A stretch of DNA of 16,418 nucleotides. Source: an uncultured Candidatus Competibacteraceae bacterium. GTDB taxonomy: Bacteria; Pseudomonadota; Gammaproteobacteria; Competibacterales; Competibacteraceae. Positions 232-16,418 of the stretch are shown one piece after another; position 1 is the stretch's first letter, and the number at the start of each line of letters is the position of its first letter. The stretch is taken from positions 1 to 16,418 of the forward strand of contig CALMNY010000505.1 of assembly GCA_937872125.1 (NCBI GenBank), read 5' to 3'. The position numbers and the translations under genes were made by a program. Under the pieces are notes generated by a model. It was given only the letters and a program-made list of their open reading frames with translations. It was not told where the DNA came from and made no database searches.

Positions 232-3200
232 ATGAAGCGCCGCTACCCGCTCCTGTTCCTGTTCCTGGTGACCGCCCTCGCGGGGGCGAACCCGGGCGCC
301 GTCCCGGACGCCGCGCCGGAGCTGCTGCCGATCACCCTGGAGACCGCCGAGGACACCCTCAGCCCGTGGGTGGCCTTGACCCCCCACCTCCCGCACCTGC
401 CGGCGGTGACGCTGACGGTCGTGACGCCCCCGGCCGGCGGCCAGCTGGAGCTGGATGGCGCCCACCGGGCGCGCTTTCGCCCGCAACCGGACTGGCACGG
501 CGACACGACCTTTCGCCTGCGTGCCTGCCACCCCGATGGGCGCTGTCACGAGACAGAACACACCCTCCGGGTGTCGCCCACGGCGGACCCCCCCCAGCTC
601 CCCGCGGTCTCCCTGACCAGCGCCGCGCCGCAGCCCAGTCCCTGGTTCGCCCTCCCCATCAGCGATCCCGATGAGCCCCCGCCGGGCGGCCACCGCCTGG
701 AGCTGGTCAATCCGCCGCCGCCGACGCACGGGGTGGTCGAGGTGGACGGCGAGCGGGTGCGCTTCGTGCCGGCCCCGGGGTGGACGGGGGTGACCCGCGC
801 CGATCTGGCGGCCTGTCACGCCGACGGCCGCTGCGGCCGCCCCACGCCGTTGACCCTGCAGGTCTTGGCCGACGCCGCCCCGCCCGCCTGTGATGCGCCG
901 CTGGTGCGCGTCCAGGCCGGCGAGCCGGCGACCACCGCCGCGCTGGACGCCACGGCGGCGGGCGACCCGCGCCAGCTAAGCATCCCCGCGCACGCACCGG
1001 GGCTGACGGTGCAGGTGACGGACGCGACGCAGCTGTCCGTCCAGGCGCCCGCCACCGCGCGGCGCGGGGACGCCTGGTACCTGCTGGAGGTGTGCGCCGA
1101 CGCCGACCGCTGCACCACCTGCCGCGGCACGGTGCGGATCGAGACGGTCAATCACCCCCCCCGCCTCAGCGTGCCGTCCTTCGTCACCGACGAAGATACC
1201 CCCAGCCGGTTCCTGCGCCCGTCGGTGGCCGACGCCGATCCGGGCGATGACTGGCGGCTGGAACTGGTCACGCCGCCGCCGGCGACGACGGGCGTGGTCC
1301 AGACCCTGGGCAAGGAGCTGCGCTTCAAGCCCGCCCCGGACTGGCACGGCACGACGGAATTCACCCTGCGCGTCTGTGATGCGCAGGGCGCCTGCAGCGC
1401 GCCGCAGCCGGCGCCGGTGACGGTGCGCCCGGTCAACGATGCCCCGACGCTGCCCGCCACCGCGTTCACGCTCGCCGAGGATCAAGCGCCGGCGTGGTTC
1501 CCCTTGCCGGTGGTCGACCCGGACTCGTCGGGGCCGTTCCAGGTGGCGGTGGTGGCCCAGGGCGCGGGGGTGGTGGCGGCAGGGGAGGGCGGCCGCGCGC
1601 CGCGCCTGCGGCTGACGCCGCGCCAGGACGCCACCGGCACGGCCCTGGTGACCCTGCGGCTGTGCGATGACGCCGGGGCCTGCGCCCCGGCCACGGTAAC
1701 CGTCACCCTCCAGCCGGTCAACGATCCGCCCGTGGCGGCGAGCGGCACGCTGCTCGGCCCCGCGGGGGCGACGAGCGCCTGGCTGGACGTGGCGGTACTG
1801 GATCCCGACGCCCATGATACCCACCGCGTGGAGATCGTCACCCCCCTGGACGACACCCTGGGCGCCCTGGAGGTGAGGGGGCGCCGGGTGCGGGTGCAGG
1901 CCCCCGCCGGCGCGGCCGGTCGGGACACCGCGGGGTTGCGGGTCTGCGATGCCGCGGGCGATTGCTCCCCGTCCTTCCCGCTCACGGTCGAGGTGACGCC
2001 GACCCTCCCCGCCTGTGCGGCGCTGCAGGCGGCGCAGGCGGCGGCGGCGGTCTGCGCCGCCGCCGCGGTTCCCGCCGCCAGCGCCGAACTGGCGGCCGCC
2101 TGTTGGCAGGCCGGGGCGGCAACCCCGGACAGCCCGCCCGCCGCCGACACCCTCCTGTTGGCGACCGGGGAGGATGAGCCCAGCCCCTGGGTGCCGCTGC
2201 CGTGGCAGGGGGCGGACTGCGCGTGCCCGGACGACGGCTGTCCCCTGGAGCTGGTTACGCCGCCCCCGCCCGCCGCCGGCACGCTGGAACTGGCCGCGGG
2301 ACGCCTGCGCTTCGTCCCCGCCCCCGACTGGTCCGGCACGGCCGCGGCCCAGGTGCGGGCCTGCGCCCCCGGCGGCGCCTGTCAGTCGCCCCGGACCGTG
2401 GCCCTGCTCGTCACTCCCCAGCCGGACGCGCCACGCGTCCCGGCCGGGCTGATCGAACTCACGCTGGACGATCAACCCGCGCCGCTGGCGCCCGCGGTGC
2501 TCACGGTGGACCCCGGGACGTCCGCCACCGATCTGCGCTTCCGGCTCCTGACCACGGCGGCCGCCAGCGACGGCGTGGCGCTGACCGCCTCCGGCGCCCT
2601 GCAGCGCGACGCGGCCCTGGCCGCGCGCCCGCTGGAGGTCACCCACTTGCTGCAGGTGTGCGCGGCGGACGAGCGCTGCACGGTGACCCATCTGCGGCTG
2701 CGCGCCGCCGACGCCCGCCCGGCGCCGCGCCTCACCGCGCCGCCGTGGGTGGTCACCGCCGGCAGCCCGGATACCTGGCATCCCTTTGACCTGCAGTCTG
2801 CGGACCCCGACGCCCACCTCCAGCTCGAGCTGTTGAGCAGCACCCTGCCGGGCACGGTGGCGGTCAACGGCGCCGCGGCACGGCTGGTCCCGACCTGGGG
2901 CTGGACCGGGGAGGGGCTGACCCGCTGGCGGGCCTGTGATGACCGCGGCCACTGTTCCGAACCCGTCGCGGTCCCGGTGCGGGTCGTGGCGGCGCCGGAC
3001 GCGCCGGCCTTCAATCCGGTCACCCTCGCCACCCGCGAAGACACCGCCACCCCGTGGCTGGAGCTGGCCGTGCGCCAGGCGGAGCCGCGGCCCCCTTACA
3101 CCCTCACGGTCGATCCCCCGCCCTCCGCCGGCGCGGTGCTGACGGACGGCGCCCGGCTGCAGTATGTCCCGGCGCCGGACGCGTCCGGGGAGGACGCCTT

Positions 3201-6200
3201 CGGCCTGGTGCTGTGCGATGCGGCGGGGCGGTGTGCGCGCCAGCCGGGCCAGGTGCGCGTGCAGGCGGTCAACGATCCGCCCCAGACCACCGCGGCCCCC
3301 CTGCTGACCGCGGAGGATCAGAGCAGTCCCTGGCGGGATCTCACGCCGGCGGATCCCGACCCGGCGGAGCGCCACACCTTGGAGATCCGGCGCCATCCGC
3401 CCCTGGAGGCCGGCACCGTCGAGGTGGCGGACCTGCAGCTGCGCTTTCATCCCGCCCCCCACTGGTTCGGCGCCACCGCGCTGAGCTATCGCGTCTGTGA
3501 TGCGGCGGCGGCGTGCAGCGCGGACGTCGAACTGGAACTGCTGGTCACGCCGGTCGGTGACGCCCCGCGGCCGCAGCCGGCGGAGCAGACCACCCGCGAG
3601 GACACCCCCAGCGACTGGTGGCCCCTGCCAATCGACGACGACGACCCGGAGGATCAGCACGACGTGACCCTGACCGCGGTGCCCGCGGGACTCACCGTCC
3701 AGGTGCGTGATCGGCAGCTCCAGGTCAGCCCCGACCCGGACGTGGCCGGCGCCTTCGCGGTCGGCCTGACGGTCTGTGACCGCTATCAACGCTGCACCCC
3801 CACCACCCTGCCGGTGCGCATCGACCCGGTGGCGGACAGCCCGCAGGTCGAGGAGCTGTTCGTCGTCCACGAGCAGGGGACCCCCCCGGAGTGGCTGACC
3901 CCGACCCTGCGCGACCCGGACGTCGGGGATCAGCATCACCTGGAATTGCTCGGCGTGCCCGACCAGGGCCAGGCCGAGGTCAAGGGCGCGCAGCTGCGCT
4001 ACCTGCCGGCGCCGGACTTCCTCGGCGAAACCGTCCTGGCCTTCCGCGCCTGTGATCAGCAGGGGCTGTGCTCGCCCCCGGCGCGCGCCGTCCTGCGGGT
4101 GGTGGACCACAACGACCCGCCGCACCTGGCCGCGCTCCAGATCAGCGTCGCCCCGGGCGAGACCGCGGAGGTCCGGGTCGACTACTCGGACCCGGATGCC
4201 GACGAGACCCACGTCCTGCGCCTGCGCCAGGAGCCGGGCTTCGGCACGGCGACCCTGAGCGATAACCGCCTGCGTTACACCGCCCCGGCGGAGGCCACCG
4301 GCGCCACCGAGCTCCACCTTGAACTGTGTGACCAGAAACCGCAGTGCGTGGCGCGCGTCGTGCCCATCACCCTCCTCGCGCGCAACCAGGCCCCGGTGCT
4401 GGCCCCGCTGACCCTGCTGCTGCCCGCCGCGCCCGCGCCCGCCCCCTGGGTGCGGGCGGTGATCGAGGATCCGGATGCGGGCGATGAGCACCGCCTGGAG
4501 GTGGTCACGCCGCCGCGCCACGGACGCGTCGAACTCCAGGGCGCGGAGCTGCGCTACCAGGCCGCGCCGGCCTTCAGCGGCGAGGAACGCCTGACCCTGC
4601 GCGCGTGCGACGCCCAGGACGCCTGCTCGCCGCCCGCCCCGGTCACCGTCCGCGCCACCCCGGCCGCGGACGGCGACCCGTTGCAGGTCGACGACAGCAG
4701 CCTGGAGCTGAGCGAGGATGGCCTCGCGCCCTGGGTGGACCTCCTGACCCGGGTGCGCCCGGCCGTCGCGCCCGACACGCTGGTGGTGGAACTGACCGAC
4801 CCGGCCCAGCATGGCCAGTGTCACCTGTCCGGCCGCCGGCTGCGCTATCGGCCCCCGGCCGACTGGTCGGGCGCGGACAGCTGCGGCTATCGCGTCTGTC
4901 GCACCGACGGGCACTGTAGCGCGCCCGCGCGCCTGCAGGTCACCGTGACCCCCCAACCGGATGCGCCCCGCCTCGGCGAGCTGACGCTGGACCTGCTGGA
5001 ATCGACCACGCAGACCGTCACCGTCCCGGTCTTCGATGCCGACGAGCAGGCGGGGCACCGGGTGACGGTGGTGGAGAGCGCCGCCGACCTGACCCTGGTG
5101 GTGTCCGGTCTGGAACTCGAGGTCACGCCGCGGCCGACGTTTTCCGGGGACGCCCCCTTTACCCTGCAGGCCTGTGATGCCGGCGGGCTGTGCAGCCAAC
5201 GCGCCTATACCGTGACGGTGCTGCCGCTGCCGGACGCGCCGCGCCTGACGCCGCTGACCCTGGAGGTCGAGGAAGATACCGCCACCGGCCCGGTGGCGGT
5301 GCCGATCGTCGACGCGGATGCCAACGAGCGGTACTGGCTGCAGGTGCTCGCGCCGCCGGAACATGGCCAGGTGACCGTGGCGGCGGGGAGTCAACCCACC
5401 CTCACCTACACCCCCCATCCCGACTATGCCGGCAACGATGACCTGTTGCTGCAGGTCTGCGACCAGCACACCCTGTGTAACGAGATGCCCGTCACCGTGC
5501 GCGTGGCGGCGCGCAATGATCCGCCCCAGGCGGTGACGCTGGTCCTGCGCACCCACCAGGACACGCCGGTCCCCTTTACCCGGCCCGCGGTGACGGACCC
5601 GGACCGCGACGATCGCCACCAGCTCAGCGTCGTGACGCCGCCGCAGCAGGCCACGGTCGAGCTGGGCACGGACCTGTTGAGCCTGCGCGCCCTGCCGCGG
5701 CCCGGGTTTACCGGCCGGGAAACCTTCACGGTGCGGGTCTGTGATCTGAGCGCGGCGTGCGTGGACGCGGCGGCGGAACTCGAGGTGCTGCCCCTGCGCA
5801 ACCCCGCTGACACCCTGGCGATCCTGCCCACGGTCGCGGTGGTCGGGCCCTCCCCCGAGGGGCGCTGGCCGTTGGTGACCACGCCGCTCACGCGCCGCGA
5901 CACCGGCGAACGCGTGACGGGCAAGCACCCGCTCACCCTGCGCTACGCCGCCGACGGACGGGCCAACCTGCGCTTGGGCACCGCCACGCTCGTCCCGGGT
6001 GGCACGCTCACGGTGCCCGACTATGATTTCGATGCCGCGGGGGGACGCATTGCCCTGGCGTTGGCCCTTGACGCGCCCGCCACCGCCCCGGACGGCGTGA
6101 TCGGGATGCTCACGCTCCGGGTGGAGGCGCTTGTGACCGAGGACATCGGCGTCCAGCTCGCCACCTGGAATCCCGCCCGCCTGCTCGCGCCCCAACCGCC

Positions 6201-8865
6201 GACGACGGTCGTGGCGCGGGACGTCCAGCGCCTCGACATCCCCGTCGCCGACCTCAGCGGCTACTGCGCCGGGACGGTCCTGACCTGGACCTCAGCCGCC
6301 GCCTTCCCGCGGCGGGATCGCAGCCGGGGCTACTGCGCGGTGGAATGGCTGGACCTCCCCCCCGGACTGGAGCCCGACCGCCGCGCCGTGGGGGCGAGCC
6401 TGACGGGGCGCGTGACGACCCCGGACCCGGTGGCCACCCTCGTCTGGCGCGCCGGCCTGGTGTTTTTCGATCACCTCGGCCTGCCGCGCTTCTTTCCGGC
6501 CGCCGGGGAACGCCGCCTGGAGCTGCAGGTGATCGCGCCGCCGCTCCCGGAACTGCTGTTCCGTCCCGACGCGACGGCCAGCGTCACGGGGCCGGCGGGT
6601 GGCTATTGGCCCCTGCCGGCCACGGCGGTGGCGCAGGTCAGCGCCCGGGCGCCCTATCCCGGCCTGACGCTGACCCTCGACCCGGTCGGGGGGGCGGACC
6701 CGGAGGGGATTGTCGTGCACAGCGCCAGCACCACGGTCCAGGCGGACGTGACCAGCGCGCGCCGCCCGCAGACTTACCGCCTCACGGCGGCCTACTCGCA
6801 GGCCCCGGCGCACGCCGCCACCGCGCAGCTGACCCTGGGCGAACCCGGTCGCGGCAGTGCCGTGACCTTGCATGGCGGGCCGACCCTTACCCAGCGCGCC
6901 GATGAGGCGCTGGTGATCCACGGCGCCCTGGTGGACTTCGCCGCCCCGGACCGGCCGGCGGACGAGGCCGGGCGCTGGCGGGTGCAGCTGATGCGCCAGC
7001 AGGCGGGCGGCCCGGACGTGGCCGTCGGCCCGGAAATCGAGGCCGGCGCGGCGCCCTTCACCCTGACGCTGCCGCCCCAGGCGCCCGGGGAATTCCTGCT
7101 CTTTGCCGAAGCGCTCGATGCCTATGGCACCGGGCAGCGGGTGCATTCCGCGCCGCTGCGCGTCATCCTCAGTGACCCCGCCGCGGCGCCGGCCATCACC
7201 CTGGACGCCGACCTCCGCCAGGGCCAGGCCCCGCTGGCCACGACCCTCACCGCGCGGCTGCCCGCGGCCGCCCTCGCCCAGGTGGCGGCCGTGGCTTGGG
7301 AAAGGGCCCCCGACCCGGACGGGGCCTACCAGGTGATCGCGACGACGACCGCGCCCGAGTTGCGGTTGACCCTGCCGCTCCTGGTGCGGGAACCGGGCGT
7401 CTATCATTACCGGCTGCGCGTCACGCCGCGGGGCGGCGGGCCGCCCACCTATTCTCCGCCCCTCACGGTGCAGGCCTATCAGCTGCCCCCGTTGCGCATC
7501 CACGGCTATCCCGAAACCGTGCTCGGCCGGCCGGTACAGTGGGCCGTGCTGGAGAGCGGGGCGGACGCCATCGAGTATCAGTGGACCTCACCCGCGCTGG
7601 TCGGCAGCGCGCAGGGCGCCAGCGTCCAGCTGGCCGCGGATCAGCCCGGCCGCCTGCCGGTCACCGTGCGGGCCAAGTACGTCACCGCGCCCGACCTGCC
7701 GGCGGCCTGGGCGACCTGGACCGGCCAGTTGCTGGTCGCGCCGCCGTTCCTGCGGGCGCCGACCCTGAGCGGGCCCTACACCGTGTACGAAGGTCAGGTT
7801 GCCCGTTTCCACAGTCCCCAGGAGCCGGTGGTGGATCCGGCCGCGCCGCTGGCGCCGGCGGTGCGCCGGCTGTGGCGCCTGCCCAACGGCCGGGTGGCGA
7901 CCGGCGACAGCGTGGTCTACACCGTGGGCGCGGACGACGCCCATATCGATTACAGCGCCTGGCTCGATGGCCATGAGGCGACGACCCGCGTCACCAGCCG
8001 GCTGCCCCTCCACACCCATGCCCGCCCCTGGCCGCGCTGGCAGTTGCAACGGCGCCCCCTGCGCGCCCAGACCCCGGCCCGCGTGTATTACGCCCTGGTC
8101 CCCGAAACGCCCGCCGGGCAGCGCGATCTGCGCCTGGGCCAGGACCTGCGCTATGACCTCGACCTGCCCGCGGGGGTGACCGTGCTCGCGCATGACCGGC
8201 ATACCGCCCTGCTCCAGTTCGACGCCCCGGGGCCCTATGCGGTGCGCTTTACCGTCACCGACGCCCAGGGCCGCCAGCAGACGGTGGAGGACCGGCTGAC
8301 GATTGCCGATCCCCCCCCGCTGCTGGCCTCCGTGCGCACCTTTTTCGCCGATCGCTGGCAACGGGCGCCGCTGGACACGACCCTGCGCTGGTCGGTCGAG
8401 GGCCTGGCCGCCGGGGAAACGGTCACCGCCGTCCAGCTCCTGCTCGACGGCGAGCTGGCGCAGACGGACCCCCCCGCGACCGCTGCCCTGCGCCTGATGA
8501 CGCCGGGCCAGCATGAGGTCGTGCTGCGGGTACGCACCTCCCAGGGACGCAGCGTCGCGGAGCGGACCCGGATCCAGGTCCAGCGCCCCGCGCCGCCGCG
8601 CTGCCAGATTGAGGTCAGCGGGCCCCTGCCGGGCAACGCCGGGATCAGCGCCGTCTGCACCACGCCCCTGGGCCGCGTCGGCAGCTATCACTGGCGCGTG
8701 CTGTTCGTCGATGGCGGGCGCGTGGAGCTGAAAAACGGCGGCCAGCGCTTTCAGCTGGCCAAGGCCGACCAGGCGCGGGCGGTCGCGCGGATCGAGCTCG
8801 TCGCGCGGGACGATCAGGGCCACGCCGCGCCGGTGGTCACCTGGGCGCCGGAGGCGCGGCCGTGA
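232..8865 (+). CDS. Giant secreted cadherin/Ig-like tandem-repeat protein (2877 aa), cysteine-looped
   Basis: The N-terminus (MKRRYPLLFLFLVTALAGA, probable cleavage after residue 19) is a Sec signal peptide. Residues about 26-1857 are 19 divergent repeats of 92-99 residues. A typical repeat runs ED(T)xSPW...DPDxxDxH...LELVTPPxxG...LRFxPAPDWxG...LRVCDAxGxC...VTVxPVNDPP. This is the plan of bacterial cadherin-like/tandem-95 repeats, with conserved acidic residues that could bind calcium between domains. Each repeat has C-x5-C. Residues 1858-2877 form a different, mostly beta-rich module shared with the next gene; it contains cysteine pairs 2012/2035 and 2791/2809. I count 52 cysteines, an even number. 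No sortase motif, autotransporter barrel or C-terminal anchor is visible. Expected location is the periplasm or cell surface, with a role in adhesion or cell-cell contact; this is inference from architecture. The layout recalls conjugative-plasmid giant Ig-like proteins such as RSP of R27. The start is fixed by the signal peptide. The ATG lacks a Shine-Dalgarno site and lies 4 bases after the preceding stop. Confidence 0.93.
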   Translation: MKRRYPLLFLFLVTALAGANPGAVPDAAPELLPITLETAEDTLSPWVALTPHLPHLPAVTLTVVTPPAGGQLELDGAHRARFRPQPDWHGDTTFRLRACHPDGRCHETEHTLRVSPTADPPQLPAVSLTSAAPQPSPWFALPISDPDEPPPGGHRLELVNPPPPTHGVVEVDGERVRFVPAPGWTGVTRADLAACHADGRCGRPTPLTLQVLADAAPPACDAPLVRVQAGEPATTAALDATAAGDPRQLSIPAHAPGLTVQVTDATQLSVQAPATARRGDAWYLLEVCADADRCTTCRGTVRIETVNHPPRLSVPSFVTDEDTPSRFLRPSVADADPGDDWRLELVTPPPATTGVVQTLGKELRFKPAPDWHGTTEFTLRVCDAQGACSAPQPAPVTVRPVNDAPTLPATAFTLAEDQAPAWFPLPVVDPDSSGPFQVAVVAQGAGVVAAGEGGRAPRLRLTPRQDATGTALVTLRLCDDAGACAPATVTVTLQPVNDPPVAASGTLLGPAGATSAWLDVAVLDPDAHDTHRVEIVTPLDDTLGALEVRGRRVRVQAPAGAAGRDTAGLRVCDAAGDCSPSFPLTVEVTPTLPACAALQAAQAAAAVCAAAAVPAASAELAAACWQAGAATPDSPPAADTLLLATGEDEPSPWVPLPWQGADCACPDDGCPLELVTPPPPAAGTLELAAGRLRFVPAPDWSGTAAAQVRACAPGGACQSPRTVALLVTPQPDAPRVPAGLIELTLDDQPAPLAPAVLTVDPGTSATDLRFRLLTTAAASDGVALTASGALQRDAALAARPLEVTHLLQVCAADERCTVTHLRLRAADARPAPRLTAPPWVVTAGSPDTWHPFDLQSADPDAHLQLELLSSTLPGTVAVNGAAARLVPTWGWTGEGLTRWRACDDRGHCSEPVAVPVRVVAAPDAPAFNPVTLATREDTATPWLELAVRQAEPRPPYTLTVDPPPSAGAVLTDGARLQYVPAPDASGEDAFGLVLCDAAGRCARQPGQVRVQAVNDPPQTTAAPLLTAEDQSSPWRDLTPADPDPAERHTLEIRRHPPLEAGTVEVADLQLRFHPAPHWFGATALSYRVCDAAAACSADVELELLVTPVGDAPRPQPAEQTTREDTPSDWWPLPIDDDDPEDQHDVTLTAVPAGLTVQVRDRQLQVSPDPDVAGAFAVGLTVCDRYQRCTPTTLPVRIDPVADSPQVEELFVVHEQGTPPEWLTPTLRDPDVGDQHHLELLGVPDQGQAEVKGAQLRYLPAPDFLGETVLAFRACDQQGLCSPPARAVLRVVDHNDPPHLAALQISVAPGETAEVRVDYSDPDADETHVLRLRQEPGFGTATLSDNRLRYTAPAEATGATELHLELCDQKPQCVARVVPITLLARNQAPVLAPLTLLLPAAPAPAPWVRAVIEDPDAGDEHRLEVVTPPRHGRVELQGAELRYQAAPAFSGEERLTLRACDAQDACSPPAPVTVRATPAADGDPLQVDDSSLELSEDGLAPWVDLLTRVRPAVAPDTLVVELTDPAQHGQCHLSGRRLRYRPPADWSGADSCGYRVCRTDGHCSAPARLQVTVTPQPDAPRLGELTLDLLESTTQTVTVPVFDADEQAGHRVTVVESAADLTLVVSGLELEVTPRPTFSGDAPFTLQACDAGGLCSQRAYTVTVLPLPDAPRLTPLTLEVEEDTATGPVAVPIVDADANERYWLQVLAPPEHGQVTVAAGSQPTLTYTPHPDYAGNDDLLLQVCDQHTLCNEMPVTVRVAARNDPPQAVTLVLRTHQDTPVPFTRPAVTDPDRDDRHQLSVVTPPQQATVELGTDLLSLRALPRPGFTGRETFTVRVCDLSAACVDAAAELEVLPLRNPADTLAILPTVAVVGPSPEGRWPLVTTPLTRRDTGERVTGKHPLTLRYAADGRANLRLGTATLVPGGTLTVPDYDFDAAGGRIALALALDAPATAPDGVIGMLTLRVEALVTEDIGVQLATWNPARLLAPQPPTTVVARDVQRLDIPVADLSGYCAGTVLTWTSAAAFPRRDRSRGYCAVEWLDLPPGLEPDRRAVGASLTGRVTTPDPVATLVWRAGLVFFDHLGLPRFFPAAGERRLELQVIAPPLPELLFRPDATASVTGPAGGYWPLPATAVAQVSARAPYPGLTLTLDPVGGADPEGIVVHSASTTVQADVTSARRPQTYRLTAAYSQAPAHAATAQLTLGEPGRGSAVTLHGGPTLTQRADEALVIHGALVDFAAPDRPADEAGRWRVQLMRQQAGGPDVAVGPEIEAGAAPFTLTLPPQAPGEFLLFAEALDAYGTGQRVHSAPLRVILSDPAAAPAITLDADLRQGQAPLATTLTARLPAAALAQVAAVAWERAPDPDGAYQVIATTTAPELRLTLPLLVREPGVYHYRLRVTPRGGGPPTYSPPLTVQAYQLPPLRIHGYPETVLGRPVQWAVLESGADAIEYQWTSPALVGSAQGASVQLAADQPGRLPVTVRAKYVTAPDLPAAWATWTGQLLVAPPFLRAPTLSGPYTVYEGQVARFHSPQEPVVDPAAPLAPAVRRLWRLPNGRVATGDSVVYTVGADDAHIDYSAWLDGHEATTRVTSRLPLHTHARPWPRWQLQRRPLRAQTPARVYYALVPETPAGQRDLRLGQDLRYDLDLPAGVTVLAHDRHTALLQFDAPGPYAVRFTVTDAQGRQQTVEDRLTIADPPPLLASVRTFFADRWQRAPLDTTLRWSVEGLAAGETVTAVQLLLDGELAQTDPPATAALRLMTPGQHEVVLRVRTSQGRSVAERTRIQVQRPAPPRCQIEVSGPLPGNAGISAVCTTPLGRVGSYHWRVLFVDGGRVELKNGGQRFQLAKADQARAVARIELVARDDQGHAAPVVTWAPEARP
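319..5802 (+). repeat. 19 tandem cadherin-like protein repeats with C-x5-C loops
   Basis: The repeats are seen at protein level; I saw no long identical DNA copies, so they are old and diverged. The first cysteine of each C-x5-C lies at residues 99, 195, 288, 382, 478, 572, 711, 810, 902, 995, 1089, 1182, 1274, 1366, 1459, 1556, 1648, 1743 and 1837. The period is 92-99 residues except for one 139-residue step, which holds an alanine-rich insertion. Boundaries are marked by VNDPP-like or DAP separators. Most loops read CDxxGxC or close variants; the classical repeat family has an SDGxGG-type loop at the same place. Confidence 0.9.
2008..2127 (+). other. Alanine/cysteine-rich insertion between repeats 6 and 7
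   Basis: Residues about 593-632 of the first giant protein are mostly alanine with Gln, Val and three cysteines (595, 608, 624). This would favour helix or a flexible linker, in contrast to the beta-rich repeats on both sides. It accounts for the only break in repeat spacing (139 instead of about 94 residues). The DNA is very rich in GCG/GCC codons. It may be a hinge between a 6-repeat and a 13-repeat arm. Confidence 0.7.
5803..8862 (+). other. C-terminal module of giant protein 1, shared with giant protein 2
   Basis: Residues 1858-2877 lack the C-x5-C repeats. They align by eye along their length with residues 393-1411 of the next protein. Matching blocks are ATWNP/ALWDP, GYCAVEWLDLPPGL/RYCALRWLELPDGL, YPGLTLTLD in both, VLGRPVQWAV/YLGRATPWRV, TLSGPYTVYEG/RLSGPARVRAG, PARVYYALVPE/PARVYYELKPD, and a final RCQIEV...SYHWRV/HCTIDS...RYHWVI. 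The late part looks Ig- or PKD-like (repeated beta sandwiches). I cannot assign a named family with confidence; DUF4165-type plasmid proteins are a candidate to test. Confidence 0.75.
8850..8854 (+). promoter_or_regulatory. Shine-Dalgarno site for the second giant gene
   Basis: GGAGG lies 7 bases before the GTG at 8862. It supports that GTG as the real start, although it overlaps the stop of the upstream gene (GTGA). The site is inside the last codons of the upstream gene, so terminating ribosomes can restart directly. Confidence 0.7.
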
Positions 8866-11800
8866 GGCGCGGGCGGGTGGCGGTCCTGCTGGCGTGCGCC
8901 GCCCTGATCAGCGCCGTCGCCCGCGCGCAGGCGCCCGACACGGACCAGGTGACGCTGACCCTGCGCGAGGATGAGCCCAGCGCCTGGCAACCGCGCGTCC
9001 CGGGCGCCCTGGCGGGCGCCGACGCGCCGACCCTCGAGGTGACCGCGCCGCCGCGGCACGGGGTGATCGAGCGCGCGGACCAGGGCTGGCGCTATCGCCC
9101 GGCGCAAGACTGGTACGGGGAAGATGCGGCGACCCTGGCGTGGTGCGTGGCGCCGGCACGCTGTCACACGACGACGGTGAAGCTCCGGGTCACGCCGGTC
9201 AATGATCCCCCGGCCCTGGCGCCGCTGACGCTCACCACCCACCAGGACCTGCCGTCCGCCCCCATGCCGCTGGTCGTCAGCGATCCGGATGCCCGCCGCC
9301 CGCCCACCCTGGCGATCATCGGCAGTGAGCGCGGCAGCGCGACCCTGGAACAGGACCGGCTGCGCTTCACCCCGGACTACGGGGTCACCGGCACGGCGCG
9401 CGTCGACCTGATGCTGTGCGATGAGGCCGGCGCCTGCGTGGAGGCGGCGGTGCCGGTGCGCATCCGCAATGTCAACGATCCGCCGCGCTTGACGGTGACC
9501 CCGCTGGCGCTCGACGAGGACGCCGGCCCCACGCCGTTGGCCGTCACGGTGCGCGATCCCGATCCGGCGGACCGCTACGACCTGGCCGTCACCCTCGCTC
9601 CGGCGCACGGGGAGGCCGCCGCCACGCCGGACCGGCAGCAGATCACCTATACCCCGGCCGCGGACTTTCACGGCGAGGATCATTTTTTCATCGCCGCCTG
9701 TGATGCCGCGCAGGCCTGCGCCGATGCCCGGGTCAGCGTCACCGTGCGTCCGGTCAATGATCCGCCCGCGCGCGTGCTCCTCACCCTGGTGACCAAACAG
9801 GGCCAGGGTACGGACTATGTGACGCCGCTGGTGCTGGACGCCGACGCGGACGATCAGCATCAGCTCTCCCTGCTGTCGCCGCCCGAGGGGGTGTATCTGG
9901 AACTGGACGCGGCGCGCGCGGCCCTGCGGGCCCTGCCACAGCCGGGCTTCAGCGGCGCGGCCACCTTCCTGCTGCAAGCCTGCGATGCCGCCGGGGCGTG
10001 TGTCGTCAATGACGCTTTTCTCGACGTCATCCCCACCGTGACCGTGGCGCCGGAGGCCGGGACGCTGCCCGTGGCCCTGCTCGCGCCGGAGGCCCTGGCG
10101 GAGCAGGCGGTCGACATCCTGCGCACCGAGCCGTTGGCCCTGTATGGGACGCCGGCGGCCGCGCCCCTCACCGGCGTGGTGCGGGTCGACGCCCAACTGG
10201 ACGCCTCGGCGCCGCTGGCCTATCGCCTCGGGGAGGTCACCCTCCACCCGGGGGAGGAACGGTTTATCGCCTATGTCGACGTCGACGCCCACGCCGGCCG
10301 GCTGGAACTGCCGATCGCCCCTCTGCCCACCGGCCCCGTGCCCGCGGGGGCGGGGGGGCTGTTGCACCTGCGGGTCTCGGAACCGCACGCCCCCGACGTG
10401 CGCGTGCCCCTGGCACTGTGGGATCCCGGCGCGGCCATCGACCTGCGCGCGAGCCAGGCCCAGTTCGCCGCCAACGTCGAGCCGGTCCGTGTGCATGCCA
10501 GCAGTGGCGACCCCCGCTGCGCGGACGGCGTCCGCGTCGTGCGCGAGCCGCTGCCGCGCGCCGCCCCGGGGCGGGCCACTCGCTATTGCGCGTTGCGCTG
10601 GCTGGAGCTCCCGGACGGCCTGACGCAGGTCGCGGACAGCGAGGTGGCCCAACTCAGCGGCGTGGTGACGGGGGAGGGGAGCACGGCGCGCATCCGCTAC
10701 CAGCCGGGACTGCTCGTGTTCGCTGACCCGCAGGGCCCGGGGCGCTTTCTCCCCGGCCGCGAGGCCCGGGAATTTACCCTGGCCCTGGCCCGCCCGCGGC
10801 CCCCGGCCCTGTTCGTCATCCCGGTCAGCGACAACCCAACCGGGCAGGCCTATACCGCCGACGGCCCGTGGCCGGCCGCGGAGCGCGCCGCCCACGTCGT
10901 CGCCCGCGGGGACTACCCCGGCCTGACGCTCACCCTCGACGAGCAGACCCACGCCACGCCGCATCACCAGGTGCAGGCACGTCTGCCGGACGCGCCCGCG
11001 CGGATTACGGCGACCGCCCACTATCCGGCGGCCCCGCACCTCACCGCCCAGGCCCGGCTGGATCGGCGCCCCGGGGCGGCGACGCCCACCCCCCGGCTGG
11101 CGGCCCTCGACCAGCCGCCGCTGGCGGGCGCGCCCGTCACCGTCCACGGGCGCCTGTTCGGCCTGTCCGCCCCGCTGCCGCCCGAGGGCGGCGGCTGGCA
11201 GGTGCAGTTGTGCCAGCTCACCGCCGGTCAGCCGCCCACGGCCCTGACCGCGGCCCAGGCGCTGACCGCCGCCACGGGCGCCTTCGTCTTTGCCGACGTC
11301 TCCTTGCCCGCGGGCGACCTGGCGCTGGCGGTGCGGGCCGAGCGGCGCACGGCGGACGGCGACGGGCTGGAGAGCCTGCTCTCCGCCCCCCTGGCGGTGA
11401 CGGTGGCGGACCCGGCCCCGGTGGCCGTGACCCTGCGCGCCCCCCGCCCCCAGGGGGCCGTGCCCTTCGTGGCCGACCTGCGGGTGGAGCTGGCCCGGCC
11501 GGAGCAGGCCGCGGCCCTGGGTGAGGTGCGCTGGGAGAGCTCCGCGGATGACGGCGCTACCTGGACCCCCGTGCCGCCCGCGGCGCTCACCCCGCCGGGG
11601 TTGGCCTATGCCCCCACCCTGACCGCCGCGGGTGCCCGCCAGTATCGCGTCACCAGCGTCAATCGCTTCAGCGGCGCGACCCAGGTGGCGCCGGTGGTCA
11701 CGCTGCGCGCCTTCGACGTGCCGGACATCGCGCTGGTGGGCTTTGCCGACACCTACCTCGGGCGCGCCACCCCCTGGCGGGTGGTCTCCAGCGACCCCGC

Positions 11801-13097
11801 GCCGCTGCGCTATCGCTGGCGCCTGGAGCGCGCGGATGGCGCGGCGCCCCCGGTCGAACTGGAGGGCGCGACCCACGCGTTGGGGGCGGACCTGCCGGGG
11901 GCGCTGACGGTGACGGTCGCCGCGCGCCGGGCGGACGCGCCGGAGGTGCCCGAGGCCTGGCGCACCGTGCGCCGCCCGCTGCACGTGGGACTCCCGCCCC
12001 TGCGCCCACCCCGCCTGAGCGGCCCGGCCCGGGTGCGCGCCGGGGAGCCCGCCACCTATCACGCGCACACCGCGGCGACCCTCGACGCCACCGGGGACAG
12101 CGGCTGGCGCCTGGGCGGCCAGTGGCACTTGCCCGATGGCACGCGCGTGGCGGGCCCCCAGGTCCACTACACCCCCGCGGCCGGCGATCGCCCCCTGCGC
12201 TATGAATACTGGCTGGAAGGCCACGCCGACGCCACCCGCGCCAGCGTGACCCTCGCTCCGGAGATCTGGTCCTACCGCTGGCCGGACTGGCGCCTGTTCA
12301 CCCAGACGCTCCGTCCCTATGCCCCGGCGCGGGTCTACTATGAACTCAAACCCGATCCGCCCGACGCCCTCGGCGCGGAACCCGTGACGACGACCTGGGA
12401 CGTGCCGCCCGGGGGGGTGATCGAAGACCGCCAGGACGCCGGCATCGTGGTGCGCTATGACCGGCCCGGCAGCCATGCCGTCAGCGCGCGGGTGCGCGAC
12501 ACCCACGGGCACGCGGCCGAGCTCAGCCACGTCTTTGACGCCCTGGAGCCGCCGCCCCTGGGGGTCACCCTGACCCTGACCGCCGCCGATCCCTGGCGCC
12601 GCGCGCCGGAGACCGTCACCGCCACCTGGGAGGTCGCTGGCTTGACGGAGACCGAGGTGATCGAAACGGTGACCCTCACGGTGGACGACCGGGAACATGC
12701 CCTGACCTCGCGCGAGGGCGCGCGCTTTCCGCTCGACACCCCCGGGGAGCATCGGGTGCGGGTGGCGATCCGCACCAATTACGGGCGCACGGCGGACGAT
12801 CTGCGCGGGCTGGTCCTGACCACGGGCGTCCCGCCGCACTGCACGATCGACAGCGTCATGCCCGCCGGCCAGCCCCGCACCCTGCACGCGCGCTGCACGG
12901 CGGCACAGGGTGAGATCCGCCGCTACCACTGGGTGATCCGCTACGCCGACAACGGCGCGGAGCAGGCGGTGACCACCCGGGGCGGCGCCATCCGCCTCAG
13001 CCGGCAGGCGATGCAGCGGGGGGTGGCGGCGGTGACGCTGGTGGCCCGCGATGACAAGGACCAGGCCAGCGCCGCGGTCCAGTGGCCGCCGCCGTGA
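8862..13097 (+). CDS. Second giant secreted repeat protein (1411 aa), paralogue of the first
   Basis: A GTG start overlaps the preceding stop by 4 bases and has a good GGAGG site. The signal peptide runs about MRRGRVAVLLACAALISAVA with probable cleavage after residue 22 (ARA|Q). Residues about 26-392 hold four cadherin-like repeats of 91-94 residues, each with C-x5-C (first cysteines at 95, 186, 280, 374) and VNDPP separators. Residues 393-1411 form the module shared with the upstream protein. Cysteines 553/576 and 1327/1345 keep exactly the spacings (23 and 18) of their counterparts upstream. Cys784 has no visible partner; the aligned position upstream is methionine. The protein looks like a short-armed version of the first giant, so duplication followed by repeat gain or loss is likely. 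The two probably work at the same extracytoplasmic site, perhaps as a complex. No anchoring motif is seen, and function is not established from sequence. Confidence 0.92.
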   Translation: MRRGRVAVLLACAALISAVARAQAPDTDQVTLTLREDEPSAWQPRVPGALAGADAPTLEVTAPPRHGVIERADQGWRYRPAQDWYGEDAATLAWCVAPARCHTTTVKLRVTPVNDPPALAPLTLTTHQDLPSAPMPLVVSDPDARRPPTLAIIGSERGSATLEQDRLRFTPDYGVTGTARVDLMLCDEAGACVEAAVPVRIRNVNDPPRLTVTPLALDEDAGPTPLAVTVRDPDPADRYDLAVTLAPAHGEAAATPDRQQITYTPAADFHGEDHFFIAACDAAQACADARVSVTVRPVNDPPARVLLTLVTKQGQGTDYVTPLVLDADADDQHQLSLLSPPEGVYLELDAARAALRALPQPGFSGAATFLLQACDAAGACVVNDAFLDVIPTVTVAPEAGTLPVALLAPEALAEQAVDILRTEPLALYGTPAAAPLTGVVRVDAQLDASAPLAYRLGEVTLHPGEERFIAYVDVDAHAGRLELPIAPLPTGPVPAGAGGLLHLRVSEPHAPDVRVPLALWDPGAAIDLRASQAQFAANVEPVRVHASSGDPRCADGVRVVREPLPRAAPGRATRYCALRWLELPDGLTQVADSEVAQLSGVVTGEGSTARIRYQPGLLVFADPQGPGRFLPGREAREFTLALARPRPPALFVIPVSDNPTGQAYTADGPWPAAERAAHVVARGDYPGLTLTLDEQTHATPHHQVQARLPDAPARITATAHYPAAPHLTAQARLDRRPGAATPTPRLAALDQPPLAGAPVTVHGRLFGLSAPLPPEGGGWQVQLCQLTAGQPPTALTAAQALTAATGAFVFADVSLPAGDLALAVRAERRTADGDGLESLLSAPLAVTVADPAPVAVTLRAPRPQGAVPFVADLRVELARPEQAAALGEVRWESSADDGATWTPVPPAALTPPGLAYAPTLTAAGARQYRVTSVNRFSGATQVAPVVTLRAFDVPDIALVGFADTYLGRATPWRVVSSDPAPLRYRWRLERADGAAPPVELEGATHALGADLPGALTVTVAARRADAPEVPEAWRTVRRPLHVGLPPLRPPRLSGPARVRAGEPATYHAHTAATLDATGDSGWRLGGQWHLPDGTRVAGPQVHYTPAAGDRPLRYEYWLEGHADATRASVTLAPEIWSYRWPDWRLFTQTLRPYAPARVYYELKPDPPDALGAEPVTTTWDVPPGGVIEDRQDAGIVVRYDRPGSHAVSARVRDTHGHAAELSHVFDALEPPPLGVTLTLTAADPWRRAPETVTATWEVAGLTETEVIETVTLTVDDREHALTSREGARFPLDTPGEHRVRVAIRTNYGRTADDLRGLVLTTGVPPHCTIDSVMPAGQPRTLHARCTAAQGEIRRYHWVIRYADNGAEQAVTTRGGAIRLSRQAMQRGVAAVTLVARDDKDQASAAVQWPPP
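8937..10037 (+). repeat. Four tandem cadherin-like protein repeats with C-x5-C loops
   Basis: The loops read CVAPARC, CDEAGAC, CDAAQAC and CDAAGAC. Spacing between them is 91, 94 and 94 residues. Two of the repeats carry DPD and DADADD acidic runs in the position expected for calcium ligands of cadherin-like folds; the first repeat lacks the CD start of the loop. They are diverged from each other and from the 19 upstream repeats. Confidence 0.88.
10038..13094 (+). other. C-terminal module of giant protein 2
   Basis: Residues 393-1411 (1019 residues) match residues 1858-2877 (1020 residues) of the upstream giant in block order, length and cysteine spacing. The block ending in PARVYYELKPD is followed by a beta-rich stretch ending in RYHWVI. 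The near-equal length while the repeat arms differ almost five-fold suggests that this module is the conserved working or assembly part. Confidence 0.75.
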
Positions 13098-13106
13098 GCG
13101 GGACGC

Positions 13107-15242
13107 TCAACAGCGATGGCGCAGCCCGGTGATGCGCGGATCCTTGTGACTCTGCAGGCCCAGCTCCAACGCCCCCTCCTCGTAGAGGATGGCGCCAAAG
13201 CGCTTGCCGCGGGTGATGGCGGTATACAGCAGGGAGCGGGACAGCACCGGGTAATGCTCCCGGGCCAGGGCGATAATGACCGCGTCATATTCCGAGCCCT
13301 GGCTTTTGTGGACGGTCAAGGCATAGGCCAGCAGCAGGCCCTCGCTTTCGCGGCGGGTGTAGGTGACCGCGCGGCCATCGAATTCGACGGTCAGGGTGTC
13401 GTCCGCCGGGTTGATATCCCGGACAAACCCGGCGTCGCCGTTGAACACCTCCTTGGTGTAATCGTTCGCCGTCGCGATCACCTTGTCCCCGTGCGCGAAC
13501 GGCAGGGCGGACCCGACGCGCTCCGGCGGCAGATTGGGGTTCAGCCGCCGTTGCAGGCGCACATTCAACGCCACGGTGCCGGCCGCGCCGCGCTTCATCG
13601 GGCTGAGCACCTGGATCTGCCGCAGGGGATGAAAGCCGTAGGTCTGCGGCAGGCGGTCACACACCCACTCCTCGACGCAGGCGGCGATGTCCGCGGCGCT
13701 CGCCACCGCCAGGGCCACGTATTCGCGGCTATCGCCGCGGGGGGGCACCCGCCCGGCGCGAATGGCGTGCGCCGCCTGGATGATGTGACTGTCGGCGGCC
13801 TGCCGGTGCACCTCGCGTAAGGTCGCCACCGGGATGGCGCCACTGGCGATGAGGTCGTCGAACACGCGCCCCGGACCGACCGAGGGCAGCTGATCGGCAT
13901 CCCCCACCAGCAGCAGGGTGGTGGTCGGCGCCAGGGTTTCGAGCAGCCAGGCCATCACCTCAACGTCGACCATCGACGCCTCATCAATCAGCACCACGTC
14001 GGCCAACAGGCCGCCGCTGTTCTGGCTGTGGGTCCACAGCAGGCGGTGGATGGTGCTGGCGTCATGACCCGTGGCGGTGGCCAGGCGCTTGGCCGCGCGG
14101 CCGGTGGGCGCGGCGAGCAGGATCTTGGCCCCATACTGCTGGAGCACCTCGATGATCACCTGGGTCGTGGTGGTTTTGCCGCAACCCGGACCGCCGGTAA
14201 TGATCGCGATCCCGTGCTGCAGCGCCAGTTCCACCGCCTCGCGCTGGGAGGCGGACAGCGTCAGCCCGCAGCGCCGTTCCGCCGCCGCGATCGTGCCAGC
14301 CTCATCCGCCAGGCCATCCCGATACCAGGCCGGCGCCGCCGCGAGCCGTGCGCGCACCCAGTCAGCGACGCGCGCCTCGGCCTGGTCGAGCCGGGGCAGA
14401 TAGAGGAGATCCTCCCCGCCGAAGGAGCGGCGCGCCAGCCGGCCATCGTCCTCCAGCGCGGTCCCGACCGGCGCCAACGCCGCGGCGGCGCATTGCAGCC
14501 ATTGCGCTCCCTGCTCATACACCCGCGGCGGCGGCAGGGCGCAATGCCCATACTGCGCGGCCGTTTCCAGGGTATGCACCAGCCCGGCGCGCAGACGCTG
14601 CGGGTCGGTGGCGGCGACGCCCAGGCGCCGGGCGATGCCATCAACGGTAAGGAAACCGAAGCCCCGGACTTCGATCAGCCGGTAGGGCGTGCTGCGCACA
14701 ATGCCCAGCGTCTGGTCGCCGAAATGGGCCATGATCTGCTGCGCCTTGGCGGCGCTCACGCCCTGGCCTTCCAGAAACATCAGCAGATCCCGGTCCTGGT
14801 GATGCTTGGCCCAGGCGGCGGTGATCTGGGCCAGGCGCGCGGGGCCAATCCCCGGCACCTCCCGAATGCGCTCGGGCGTATGGTCGAGGACGTGAATCAA
14901 TTCATCACCGAATTGCTCGACCAACCGCTCCGCATAAGCGGCGCCAATGCCGGTGATCACGCCGGAAGCGAGAAAGGCGCGCAACCCCTGCGGACTGGCG
15001 GGCGGGGCAATTTTAATCGTCGAGGAGCGGAACTGGCGCCCATAGCGGCTATCCTCCACCCAATCCCCATAGGCGCAAATTTGTTCCCCGGCGGAAATCC
15101 CGGGCGCGACGCCCGTGACCCGGGCCTGGCGCCCGGAAGACCGCTCTTTCAGCAACAGGACCGCCCAGCCATTCTCCTTGGCGAATATCACCTGAATGAC
15201 GTCGCCTTCCAATTGCTGCGTAGGGGCACGGGTAACCATCAT
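13107..15242 (-). CDS. recD2: RecD2-family SF1B DNA helicase (711 aa)
   Basis: This is an ATP-dependent 5'-3' DNA helicase of the RecD2/YrrC family, acting in the cytoplasm in repair or replication-fork processing without RecB and RecC. The N-terminal domain (1-85) has the family pattern VEDSRYGRQF. Helix-hairpin-helix segments follow at about 86-112 (SGVITGIG), 129-144 (VPGIGPARL) and 192-208. The helicase core shows a Q-motif (TLSASQREAV, 328-337), Walker A GGPGCGKT (350-357), motif Ia APTGRAAKRL, Walker B VVLIDEAS (416-423), motif III VGDADQLPSV (446-455), motif V LTVHKSQGSEYD (642-653) and motif VI YTAITRGK (673-680). The length is normal for the family and all motifs are intact. The start is ATGATG, so translation may begin at 15242 or 15239; an in-frame TAG at 15255-15257 rules out a longer form. 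It lies downstream of the SLOG gene on the same strand, and its stop is 9 bases from the convergent giant gene. Confidence 0.95.
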   Translation of the reverse strand: MMVTRAPTQQLEGDVIQVIFAKENGWAVLLLKERSSGRQARVTGVAPGISAGEQICAYGDWVEDSRYGRQFRSSTIKIAPPASPQGLRAFLASGVITGIGAAYAERLVEQFGDELIHVLDHTPERIREVPGIGPARLAQITAAWAKHHQDRDLLMFLEGQGVSAAKAQQIMAHFGDQTLGIVRSTPYRLIEVRGFGFLTVDGIARRLGVAATDPQRLRAGLVHTLETAAQYGHCALPPPRVYEQGAQWLQCAAAALAPVGTALEDDGRLARRSFGGEDLLYLPRLDQAEARVADWVRARLAAAPAWYRDGLADEAGTIAAAERRCGLTLSASQREAVELALQHGIAIITGGPGCGKTTTTQVIIEVLQQYGAKILLAAPTGRAAKRLATATGHDASTIHRLLWTHSQNSGGLLADVVLIDEASMVDVEVMAWLLETLAPTTTLLLVGDADQLPSVGPGRVFDDLIASGAIPVATLREVHRQAADSHIIQAAHAIRAGRVPPRGDSREYVALAVASAADIAACVEEWVCDRLPQTYGFHPLRQIQVLSPMKRGAAGTVALNVRLQRRLNPNLPPERVGSALPFAHGDKVIATANDYTKEVFNGDAGFVRDINPADDTLTVEFDGRAVTYTRRESEGLLLAYALTVHKSQGSEYDAVIIALAREHYPVLSRSLLYTAITRGKRFGAILYEEGALELGLQSHKDPRITGLRHRC

Positions 15243-15337: not shown

Positions 15338-16162
15338 TTACCTTTCGGTGATTCCGGGCGCGGCCGTCATCGGGTCGGTCTCTCCCTTGCGCGGCGCCGT
15401 GCTCCACAATACCCGCAGGGCGCGCCCCAGCCCCTTCGCTTGCGCGATGACATGCCGGCATGGCGAAGCATCTCCCGCCGCCAACGGCTCAAATACCACC
15501 ACATGGGTCGCGGCCATCACCAGGCGCGTTTCACAATCGAGCCGGGCGCGCGCGTTGTAATGGCGACCATGCCGATTCCGGACAATCGCGCGCGGCGCCG
15601 CCAGCTGCTCCCAATGGCATTGATAGCGGGCAAAGGGGATCTGGCGCTCACTGAACCAGCGCGCGGCCAATTCATCGAGTCCCCGATTATCCCCGCACAA
15701 ACCAAACAGCTCGGCGGGATTGAGCCGCGCGCACAGATGATCCAGTTGCGCGGCGAACGGGGCATACGCGGGGGGCAGTCGCCCGCCGGTCACCAATAGC
15801 CGCAGCGGTTTCGCTGGCAGGGGCGGGGCAAACGCATCCCAGCTCGCCGGTACCTGGATATTGCCGGGGCGGACGCGAAAGAGCTCCACATAGGGGCGGG
15901 GGTCGGGCTTGCCCCCCGGAGCGCCGGGGCACAACTGGCGGCCCGTAACGGTGAAGCGCAGCTGCGGGCAGCCGGCCGCCACCCGGCGCAAACGCTCGAC
16001 GCCGACCGCCACGCTGGCCAGGCCCACCGGCTGCTGATCGGCGACGCTGGTGACGCCCAGGTGATAGTGATCCCCGTAGAGGCCGTCGGCGCGGCCAGTG
16101 TCGCCGCCAACCACGGCGACGGTGCGGGGGGGCGGATCAGTTAAGGGTGAGTGGATCGACAT
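15338..16162 (-). CDS. DUF2493/SLOG-family protein with A1S_2505-like N-terminal part (274 aa)
   Basis: Residues about 119-252 fit the DUF2493 (YspA-like, SLOG superfamily) Rossmann-type fold, thought to bind nucleotide-derived ligands. They show LRLLVTGGR near 120, GDNRGLDELAARWFSERQIP (157-176), then HWE, RAIVRNR, and a terminal VVVFEP...HVIAQAKGLGRALRVL. Residues about 15-112 recall the phage/mobile-element A1S_2505 family: GLYGDHYHLGVTS, then PQLRFTVTG and F-x6-NIQVPASW. The GSNxxGRHG-type start of that family is missing or reduced to VVGGDTG. I chose the ATG at 16162, which overlaps priA by 26 bases; a longer form from 16225 would overlap priA much more. No Shine-Dalgarno site is obvious, so coupling to priA is likely. 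The function of such proteins is unknown, and many occur in phages and mobile elements. Confidence 0.75.
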   Translation of the reverse strand: MSIHSPLTDPPPRTVAVVGGDTGRADGLYGDHYHLGVTSVADQQPVGLASVAVGVERLRRVAAGCPQLRFTVTGRQLCPGAPGGKPDPRPYVELFRVRPGNIQVPASWDAFAPPLPAKPLRLLVTGGRLPPAYAPFAAQLDHLCARLNPAELFGLCGDNRGLDELAARWFSERQIPFARYQCHWEQLAAPRAIVRNRHGRHYNARARLDCETRLVMAATHVVVFEPLAAGDASPCRHVIAQAKGLGRALRVLWSTAPRKGETDPMTAAPGITER

Positions 16163-16418
16163 CGATGGCCCAATGCAGGTGCAGGGGGGGGCGCTGCGCC
16201 GCCAGCACCCCGCTCCAGGTGGCAACGAAATGGCGCAACGGCGTGCGCTCCGGGGCCATGGCGATCAGCTGCGCGCGATACTCCCCCCCCAGCCGCTCCA
16301 TCGCCGGGGGCACCGGGCCGTGCAGTTCCACCCCGGCGGGCGCGGCCAGCTGATGGCGCGTCTGCTCCAGGAAGGCCAGCGCCGCCCCGGGCTGGCGACT
16401 GCGCGCGGTGGCCACGGC
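16137..16418 (-). CDS. priA: Primosomal helicase PriA, C-terminal fragment (cut by window edge)
   Basis: The last 93 codons of a gene that enters from the right edge. The segment VELHGPVPPAMERLGGEYRA and the ending LHWAIDVDPLTLN match the C-terminal domain of PriA (typical form: VxGPxPAPMxRxxGxYRxQLL ... RWSxDVDPxxL). PriA is the 3'-5' helicase that restarts stalled replication forks by recognising branched DNA and loading DnaB. The helicase core and zinc-binding cysteines lie outside the window, so I cannot say whether it is intact or whether it is the only copy in the cell. It is the upstream member of the - strand cluster and overlaps the SLOG gene. Confidence 0.85.
   Translation of the reverse strand, partial: AVATARSRQPGAALAFLEQTRHQLAAPAGVELHGPVPPAMERLGGEYRAQLIAMAPERTPLRHFVATWSGVLAAQRPPLHLHWAIDVDPLTLN

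Follow-up and report, generated by a model that had tools for sequence, protein, structure and literature searches.

Two putative secreted proteins with cysteine-paired tandem-95 stalks and an RSP-type C-terminal half in a Competibacteraceae contig

The window analysed here is the whole of contig C505 (CALMNY010000505.1; 16,418 nucleotides, or 16.4 kb) from an uncultured Candidatus Competibacteraceae bacterium, whose assembly (GCA_937872125.1) is made of 553 contigs, is 80.7% complete and has an estimated contamination of 3.9%. It carries two large open reading frames (ORFs), A and B, the second of which starts with GTG and overlaps the end of the first by four bases (Table 1). Both begin with what looks by eye like a signal sequence, hydrophobic in A; a stalk of repeats follows, and then a C-terminal half, and sequence comparison makes the two proteins paralogues across their last ~1000 residues.

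A motif search found the pattern C-x5-C (hereafter Cx5C) 19 times in A and four times in B, at a spacing of 91-99 residues with one exception (139, between repeats 6 and 7 of A), and the motif accounts for 46 of the 66 cysteines in the two proteins. An earlier note, made from the letters of the window, had claimed that all 23 repeats of the two proteins, lying between 319 and 10037, contain this loop, mostly as CDxxGxC. The motif search and the alignment bear this out, and the positions are correct to within about 20 bases (the repeats run from about 322 to 10058); the form CDxxGxC is also a fair description, as D directly follows the first cysteine in 16/23 repeats and G occupies motif position 5 in 13/23. 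Conservation of the cysteines amid divergence was confirmed too: in the alignment of the 23 repeats the mean pairwise identity is 0.28 (range 0.13-0.44) and the two cysteines, present in 23/23 each, are the sole invariant columns, the runner-up being a glycine found in 22/23. A second alignment gave the same two columns, while a pairwise-repeat alignment was dropped because overlapping pairs were mis-registered. The repeats are assigned by Pfam to Big_9 (PF17963), Cadherin_4 and Cadherin_5 and by NCBIfam to the tandem-95 family (NF012211); Big_9 scores are 342.6 bits for A and 103.6 for B against a curated cut-off of 23.6, and those of NF012211 are 257.6 and 90.3 against a cut-off of 90. The classical Cadherin family (PF00028) has no match anywhere in the assembly.

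Table 1. Features of the window; positions are counted from its first letter.
Feature	Position	Strand	Description or basis
ORF A	232..8865	+	2877 residues; signal-like N-terminus, 19 Cx5C Big_9/tandem-95 repeats, ~1030-residue RSP-type C-terminal half
ORF B	8862..13097	+	1411 residues; signal-like N-terminus, 4 Cx5C repeats, ~1020-residue RSP-type C-terminal half
Stalk of A, 19 repeats	322..5817	+	motif search, 23-row alignments
Stalk of B, 4 repeats	8940..10058	+	motif search, 23-row alignments
C-terminal half of A	5782..8862	+	last 560 residues (7183-8862) aligned to plasmid RSP-type proteins
C-terminal half of B	10032..13094	+	last 560 residues (11415-13094) aligned to plasmid RSP-type proteins
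A repeat 1 Cx5C hairpin	526..546	+	motif search
A repeat 2 Cx5C hairpin	814..834	+	motif search
A repeat 3 Cx5C hairpin	1093..1113	+	motif search
A repeat 4 Cx5C hairpin	1375..1395	+	motif search; repeat modelled alone, predicted local distance difference test (pLDDT) 95
A repeat 5 Cx5C hairpin	1663..1683	+	motif search
A repeat 6 Cx5C hairpin	1945..1965	+	motif search
A repeat 7 Cx5C hairpin	2362..2382	+	motif search
A repeat 8 Cx5C hairpin	2659..2679	+	motif search
A repeat 9 Cx5C hairpin	2935..2955	+	motif search
A repeat 10 Cx5C hairpin	3214..3234	+	motif search
A repeat 11 Cx5C hairpin	3496..3516	+	motif search
A repeat 12 Cx5C hairpin	3775..3795	+	motif search
A repeat 13 Cx5C hairpin	4051..4071	+	motif search
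A repeat 14 Cx5C hairpin	4327..4347	+	motif search
A repeat 15 Cx5C hairpin	4606..4626	+	motif search
A repeat 16 Cx5C hairpin	4897..4917	+	motif search
A repeat 17 Cx5C hairpin	5173..5193	+	motif search
A repeat 18 Cx5C hairpin	5458..5478	+	motif search
A repeat 19 Cx5C hairpin	5740..5760	+	motif search
B repeat 1 Cx5C hairpin	9144..9164	+	motif search
B repeat 2 Cx5C hairpin	9417..9437	+	motif search
B repeat 3 Cx5C hairpin	9699..9719	+	model: strands 59-68 and 74-84, Cys 68 and 74
B repeat 4 Cx5C hairpin	9981..10001	+	model: strands 153-162 and 168-178, Cys 162 and 168
RecD2-like helicase (neighbour)	13107..15242	-	partial matches only in the seven same-genus genomes; similar helicases on plasmids
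YspA/SLOG-like ORF (neighbour)	15338..16225	-	weak match, under the Pfam cut-off

Two orthologues of A (P0122 and P0123) are 78% and 62% identical to it, and three of B (P0002-P0004) are 81, 70 and 68% identical. Outside the motif the identity of the A stalk is 76 and 60%, and all 38 motif cysteines are retained in each orthologue; in the orthologues of B, 8/8 are retained in all three. Such complete retention indicates that the pattern is not due to chance, and it supports the proposal that the cysteine pair of each domain is under strong selection. Residues 220-670 of A (window 889-2241) contain extra cysteines outside the motif. Among the 14 non-motif cysteines of A, one (608) is missing in P0122 and two (663 and 670) in P0123; these last two are seven residues apart and both gone, whereas 665 is kept, a pattern that suggests an additional bonded pair.

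In the models the two cysteines lie at the two ends of a five-residue turn joining adjacent strands, in the last beta-hairpin of the repeat, which is the position expected of a disulfide staple. To judge from alignment and models, each domain very probably contains one hairpin disulfide. The top fold matches of the model of A repeat 4 were neck and collar proteins of Agrobacterium phage Milano, whose tail is noted for its disulfides; the match probably reflects a mere common sandwich fold. Searching solved structures by sequence with the repeat profile gave no match, A gave none at an expectation value (E) up to 0.1 and B just four weak ones. A structure search with a 1199-residue model was not used, as the 50 matches listed were only Ig (immunoglobulin)-chain-like, with a query template modelling (TM) score of at most 0.18.

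The behaviour of the two cysteines was followed in 178 tandem-95 proteins outside the family of A and B, 177 of them with scored repeats; eight proteins of the own family (P0001-P0004, P0006, P0121-P0123) were left out of this count. The 2468 gap-free repeats (32 were set aside for gaps) have both cysteines in 99 cases, the first only in 46, the second only in 4 and neither in 2319, confirming that a loop free of cysteines is the usual state. Both cysteines occur in at least half of at least four repeats in 9/178 proteins, a share of Cx5C that is likely too high because the proteins were gathered by similarity to cysteine-rich queries, among the matches listed. When the first cysteine is present, another one lies within 15 residues in 138/145 repeats (none in 7/145), against a background of 5% for randomly chosen positions in these proteins; the commonest spacings are five residues (87 repeats), four (27) and seven (11). 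Two large tandem-95 proteins (P0134 and P0141) have many repeats with C-x4-C at the equivalent hairpin, a second staple spacing. The two cysteines are thus mostly gained or lost jointly while the length of the loop varies, which is the behaviour expected if a bond spans the turn, but not if the cysteines formed a metal site with fixed geometry. A disulfide-closed loop, as the earlier note supposed, is the likeliest reason for the conservation, and a staple in each repeat is likely.

The same note had offered a metal-binding or reactive thiol site as the alternative, and the aspartate next to the first cysteine in 16/23 repeats could possibly be part of one. However, the alignment of the 23 repeats has no further invariant ligand column, relatives keep both cysteines although the loop spacing differs among them, and A and B look secreted by eye; we consider such a site very improbable. 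We also give little credence to the idea that the disulfides are a reversible redox switch of rod stiffness instead of a permanent staple. One bond per domain would provide a many-site switch, and genes of the DsbC family are found inside the transfer regions of relatives (see below), but no evidence of cycling was found and the closure of a hairpin turn rarely alters the shape of a domain.

The suggestion that these repeats define a distinct family was not sustained. A profile of the 23 repeats, blind to the cysteines, matched 1543 repeats in 120 proteins, of which 107 have both cysteines, 17 one, 1403 none and 16 gaps; it therefore recovers ordinary tandem-95 repeats. Repeat length and family score are alike in A, B and other Big_9/tandem-95 proteins, and the difference lies in the loop between the last two strands, usually cysteine-free but replaced in A and B by a hairpin of CDxxGxC type in 23/23 repeats. 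Since a cysteine-free loop is not a curated criterion of Big_9/tandem-95, A and B are a variant and are not excluded from it. Judged by sequence, Cx5C is a recurrent minority variant inside Big_9/tandem-95, not a separate family. A scan of a genome collection with B found one locus, in Myxococcus, which matched the repeat part only and was not used.

More informative than the cysteine motif, a minority variant of a known repeat, is the RSP-type homology of the C-terminal half, which the earlier note had missed. With the C-terminal half of B, 2160 plasmid records were matched, 1949 of them typed conjugative; among the 60 matches listed, 26 carry the name 'IncHI-type conjugal transfer protein RSP', and others are labelled Ig-like or DUF4165. 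Fifteen sequences, namely A, B, the paralogue on contig C234 and 12 of the 19 plasmid proteins that we fetched (including IncHI RSP and the IncC protein), were aligned over the last ~560 residues; the alignment reaches the C-terminus and has 17 invariant columns, including a cysteine pair near the end. The spacing of cysteine pairs farther upstream in the plasmid proteins resembles that in A and B, a hint that the homology may continue there. A search of solved structures with the C-terminal profile gave matches to chains of PKD type and the like. From these comparisons the relation of A and B to RSP and the plasmid Big superfamily is strong but remote.

IncHI RSP (relative L040; R27 rsp) resembles A and B in its large size, in an N-terminus that looks signal-like by eye, and in its last ~560 residues, which can be aligned to the end with the invariant cysteine pair. 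It differs in that no tandem-95 repeats were detected in it, against the 4 or 19 Cx5C repeats of B and A; in addition, A and B were not seen beside tra genes. As its identity to B over the aligned part is 19% and a Pfam search of A and B, read up to E = 1, gave no Big_3 family, the two proteins are classed by sequence as RSP homologues, not as RSP proper (IncHI). The Big proteins encoded by IncC plasmids and by MOBH plasmids of Pseudomonas (with DUF4165, Ig-like and tandem-95 annotations) have the C-terminal region in common with A and B and adjoin traV/traA/dsbC/traC, but none of their scored repeats has a cysteine at either motif position; the cadherin-like domains of SraP were also named among the closest known systems. 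A phage origin of A and B was rejected, since no relative is encoded by any viral contig sharing a pattern and the phage collection gave one matched record, labelled Salmonella enterica.

Downstream of the homologue, 17 of the 19 plasmid regions fetched have dsbC and traC, with nothing more than traA and small or intron ORFs intervening. The exceptions are Geoalkalibacter, where it lies between traG-type and traL/traE genes in the company of genes of transposase type, and IncHI RSP, whose downstream neighbours are trhF, trhW and trhU. In the pCAR1 region (L029, 1-9461) an IS66-type insertion has apparently cut the RSP-type gene in two, one part annotated as DUF4165 and the other as a hypothetical protein. 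The cysteine-blind profile detected tandem-95 repeats in 14/19 plasmid proteins, which are not independent as several are close relatives and pCAR1 was scored on its N-terminal piece only; of these 118 repeats three were set aside for gaps, and a cysteine at either motif position was found in 0/115. Where the window repeats have R(A/V)CDxxGxCS, plasmid repeats read, for example, RAxDxxGAxS. C-x5-C does occur outside the repeat columns in 3/19 proteins (five in Geoalkalibacter, one in pQBR55 and one in a P. frederiksbergensis plasmid). Frequent loss of one or both cysteines in homologues had been named as evidence against a bonded loop; by that measure the earlier proposal is partly refuted, the pair being commonly absent from relatives, plasmid proteins of this kind included, but it is mostly gained or lost as a pair, which fits a disulfide. 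The complete lack of motif cysteines in the plasmid repeats indicates that the stapled stalk was derived or swapped in and is not a property of the protein class; sequence comparison makes it a feature of the window lineage, that is A, B and their orthologues, and P0006 has a stalk of similar kind.

Other stalks rich in cysteine exist among the plasmid proteins. An RSP-type protein of a Hydrocarboniclastica marina plasmid (L043, 1516-7668) has 62 cysteines in 2050 residues, 56 of them in the first 850, and one of a Geoalkalibacter plasmid (L028, 5394-9788) has 29 in 1464 residues, 22 of them in the first 222. These N-termini have CPSGYSYSSS-like units, unlike the Cx5C stalk, and none of the Pfam families matched at E up to 0.001 covers them. 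Their difference suggests that disulfide-rich stalks arose more than once.

The C-terminal half is found in four further stretches of the own assembly, one on C234, one on C316 (with an internal stop) and two on C199. The C234 ORF and the larger C199 ORF, which is cut by the contig edge, have no Cx5C motif and no scored repeat. These two paralogues, one intact (L013, 537-6968) and one cut short (L015, 3-5090), have other stalks, poor in cysteine (six and four cysteines in all), and the copy on C316 (L014, about 10164-13298, minus strand) is broken by a stop. Within one genome, by sequence, the C-terminal half behind varied stalks is a mosaic family. Among 115 genomes (the own one, seven of the same genus and others) this half was found in the own genome, plus weak partial matches in two, and it was not found in the seven same-genus genomes searched. 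In 369 genomes, with three candidates per genome scored, it is full-length in the own only; partial matches, none scoring above 42 bits, occur in 26 others. The helicase of the window has partial matches only in the seven same-genus genomes, and RecD-like helicases covering at least 80% of it occur in 271 plasmid records at less than 60% identity. The RecJ beside the C234 copy is the second RecJ of the assembly, and similar proteins to the AAA ATPase on C316 occur in 1539 plasmid records, of which 968 are typed conjugative (~33% identity in the matches listed). Contig C453 of the same assembly carries an F-type type IV secretion cluster (traC, a trbI-like gene under the Pfam cut-off, an S26 peptidase, trbC, an S49 peptidase and traU), and DsbC and DsbB genes lie on other contigs. 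These contents fit a large mobile element scattered over contigs; A and B may be located on a plasmid or an integrative element.

A rival reading is that A and B serve as adhesins of a general kind, at the surface or in the periplasm, and have no part in conjugation; the RSP-type half would be only a common tail, and the genes would lie on the chromosome, on a non-conjugative element or on a contaminant contig. No tra genes adjoin them, the neighbouring ORFs being that of the RecD2-like helicase and the weakly SLOG-like one; the four further stretches of the C-terminal half on other contigs exceed the usual need of one plasmid; and P0006 joins SLH (PF00395), five tandem-95 repeats, 4/5 of them with both cysteines, and an RSP-type C-terminal half. 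Against this stand the predominance of conjugative types among the related plasmid records (1949/2160), the position of the 19 fetched genes among transfer genes, and the failure to find the module in the seven same-genus genomes searched, and we consider this explanation unlikely.

What we favour, with some reserve, as the probable reading is that A and B are secreted mating or adhesion proteins of RSP type with an interchangeable stalk, here stapled by disulfides. A and B would be rod-like members of the plasmid RSP/Big superfamily, in which a conserved C-terminal half of ~1000 residues, PKD- and Ig-like, stands behind an interchangeable N-terminal stalk; in the window lineage this stalk would be a tandem-95 rod with one disulfide per domain (19 in A, 4 in B) closing the turn of the last hairpin. 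By analogy with RSP/RSP2 of R27 and with the Big protein of IncA/C, their route would lead through the periplasm, in which Dsb enzymes would make the bonds, to export by an F-type type IV secretion system. Outside the cell they may serve as rods that adhere to pili, flagella or partner cells and promote mating contact, the staples stiffening and protecting the rod; a role in conjugation is suggested by the same analogy. PMC6764697 reports, among its results, that RSP is exported by the type IV system of its own plasmid via a periplasmic intermediate, binds flagella and is required for efficient R27 transfer, while PMC8730810 reports that RSP2 binds both flagella and conjugative pili and that the IncA/C protein favours transfer at 25 C.

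Several observations weigh against this reading. No plasmid match extends over more than about half of the C-terminal half of B, none of the records reaching 80%, and the plasmid rows of the alignment are 19-26% identical to B over the last ~560 residues, lowest for IncHI RSP, so that the relation is a remote one; our confidence comes from that 560-residue alignment. There is no tra gene inside the 16.4-kb contig, which begins 231 bases upstream of A and so does not show the tra-operon surroundings usual for such genes, and a TraI_2 (MOBH) relaxase was not found in the 80.7%-complete assembly. TraU is present in 52/369 genomes, the own included; with one TraU-positive genome carrying the module, the co-occurrence proves nothing statistically. 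C505 could also be a contaminant contig, given the estimate of 3.9%. PMC8730810 also cites an IncC study in which the Big gene was not seen to affect transfer at 37 C.

A broader proposal, which we put forward tentatively and hold somewhat doubtful, is that RSP-type proteins in general consist of one C-terminal half with swappable stalks, that several lineages separately armoured the stalk with disulfides, by Cx5C tandem-95 repeats here and by other cysteine-rich N-termini on the Hydrocarboniclastica and Geoalkalibacter plasmids, using the Dsb proteins of the transfer region, and that the window belongs to an undescribed conjugative element. In the literature searched we found no description of cysteine pairs in tandem-95 repeats or in RSP, and the words 'disulfide' and 'cysteine' are absent from the main texts of PMC6764697, PMC11268884 and PMC8730810; disulfides in other Ig-like stalk domains are among the subjects treated in PMC12617251. 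Overall, the earlier interpretation stands as regards selection on the cysteine pair and a likely disulfide, but not as regards a distinct family.

These results extend the RSP/Big conjugation proteins past the plasmid groups named in the cited papers, suggest for them a conserved C-terminal half with exchangeable stalks, and offer a possible reason why dsbC lies beside their genes in transfer regions. They also give a rule for reading Big_9/tandem-95 sequences, namely that when a cysteine ends the last strand but one, a partner is almost always present on the far side of the turn. Finally, the 23 natural stapled repeats of one fold, together with unstapled relatives from the same protein superfamily, make a set on which the effect of a hairpin disulfide on the stability of a rod may be measured.

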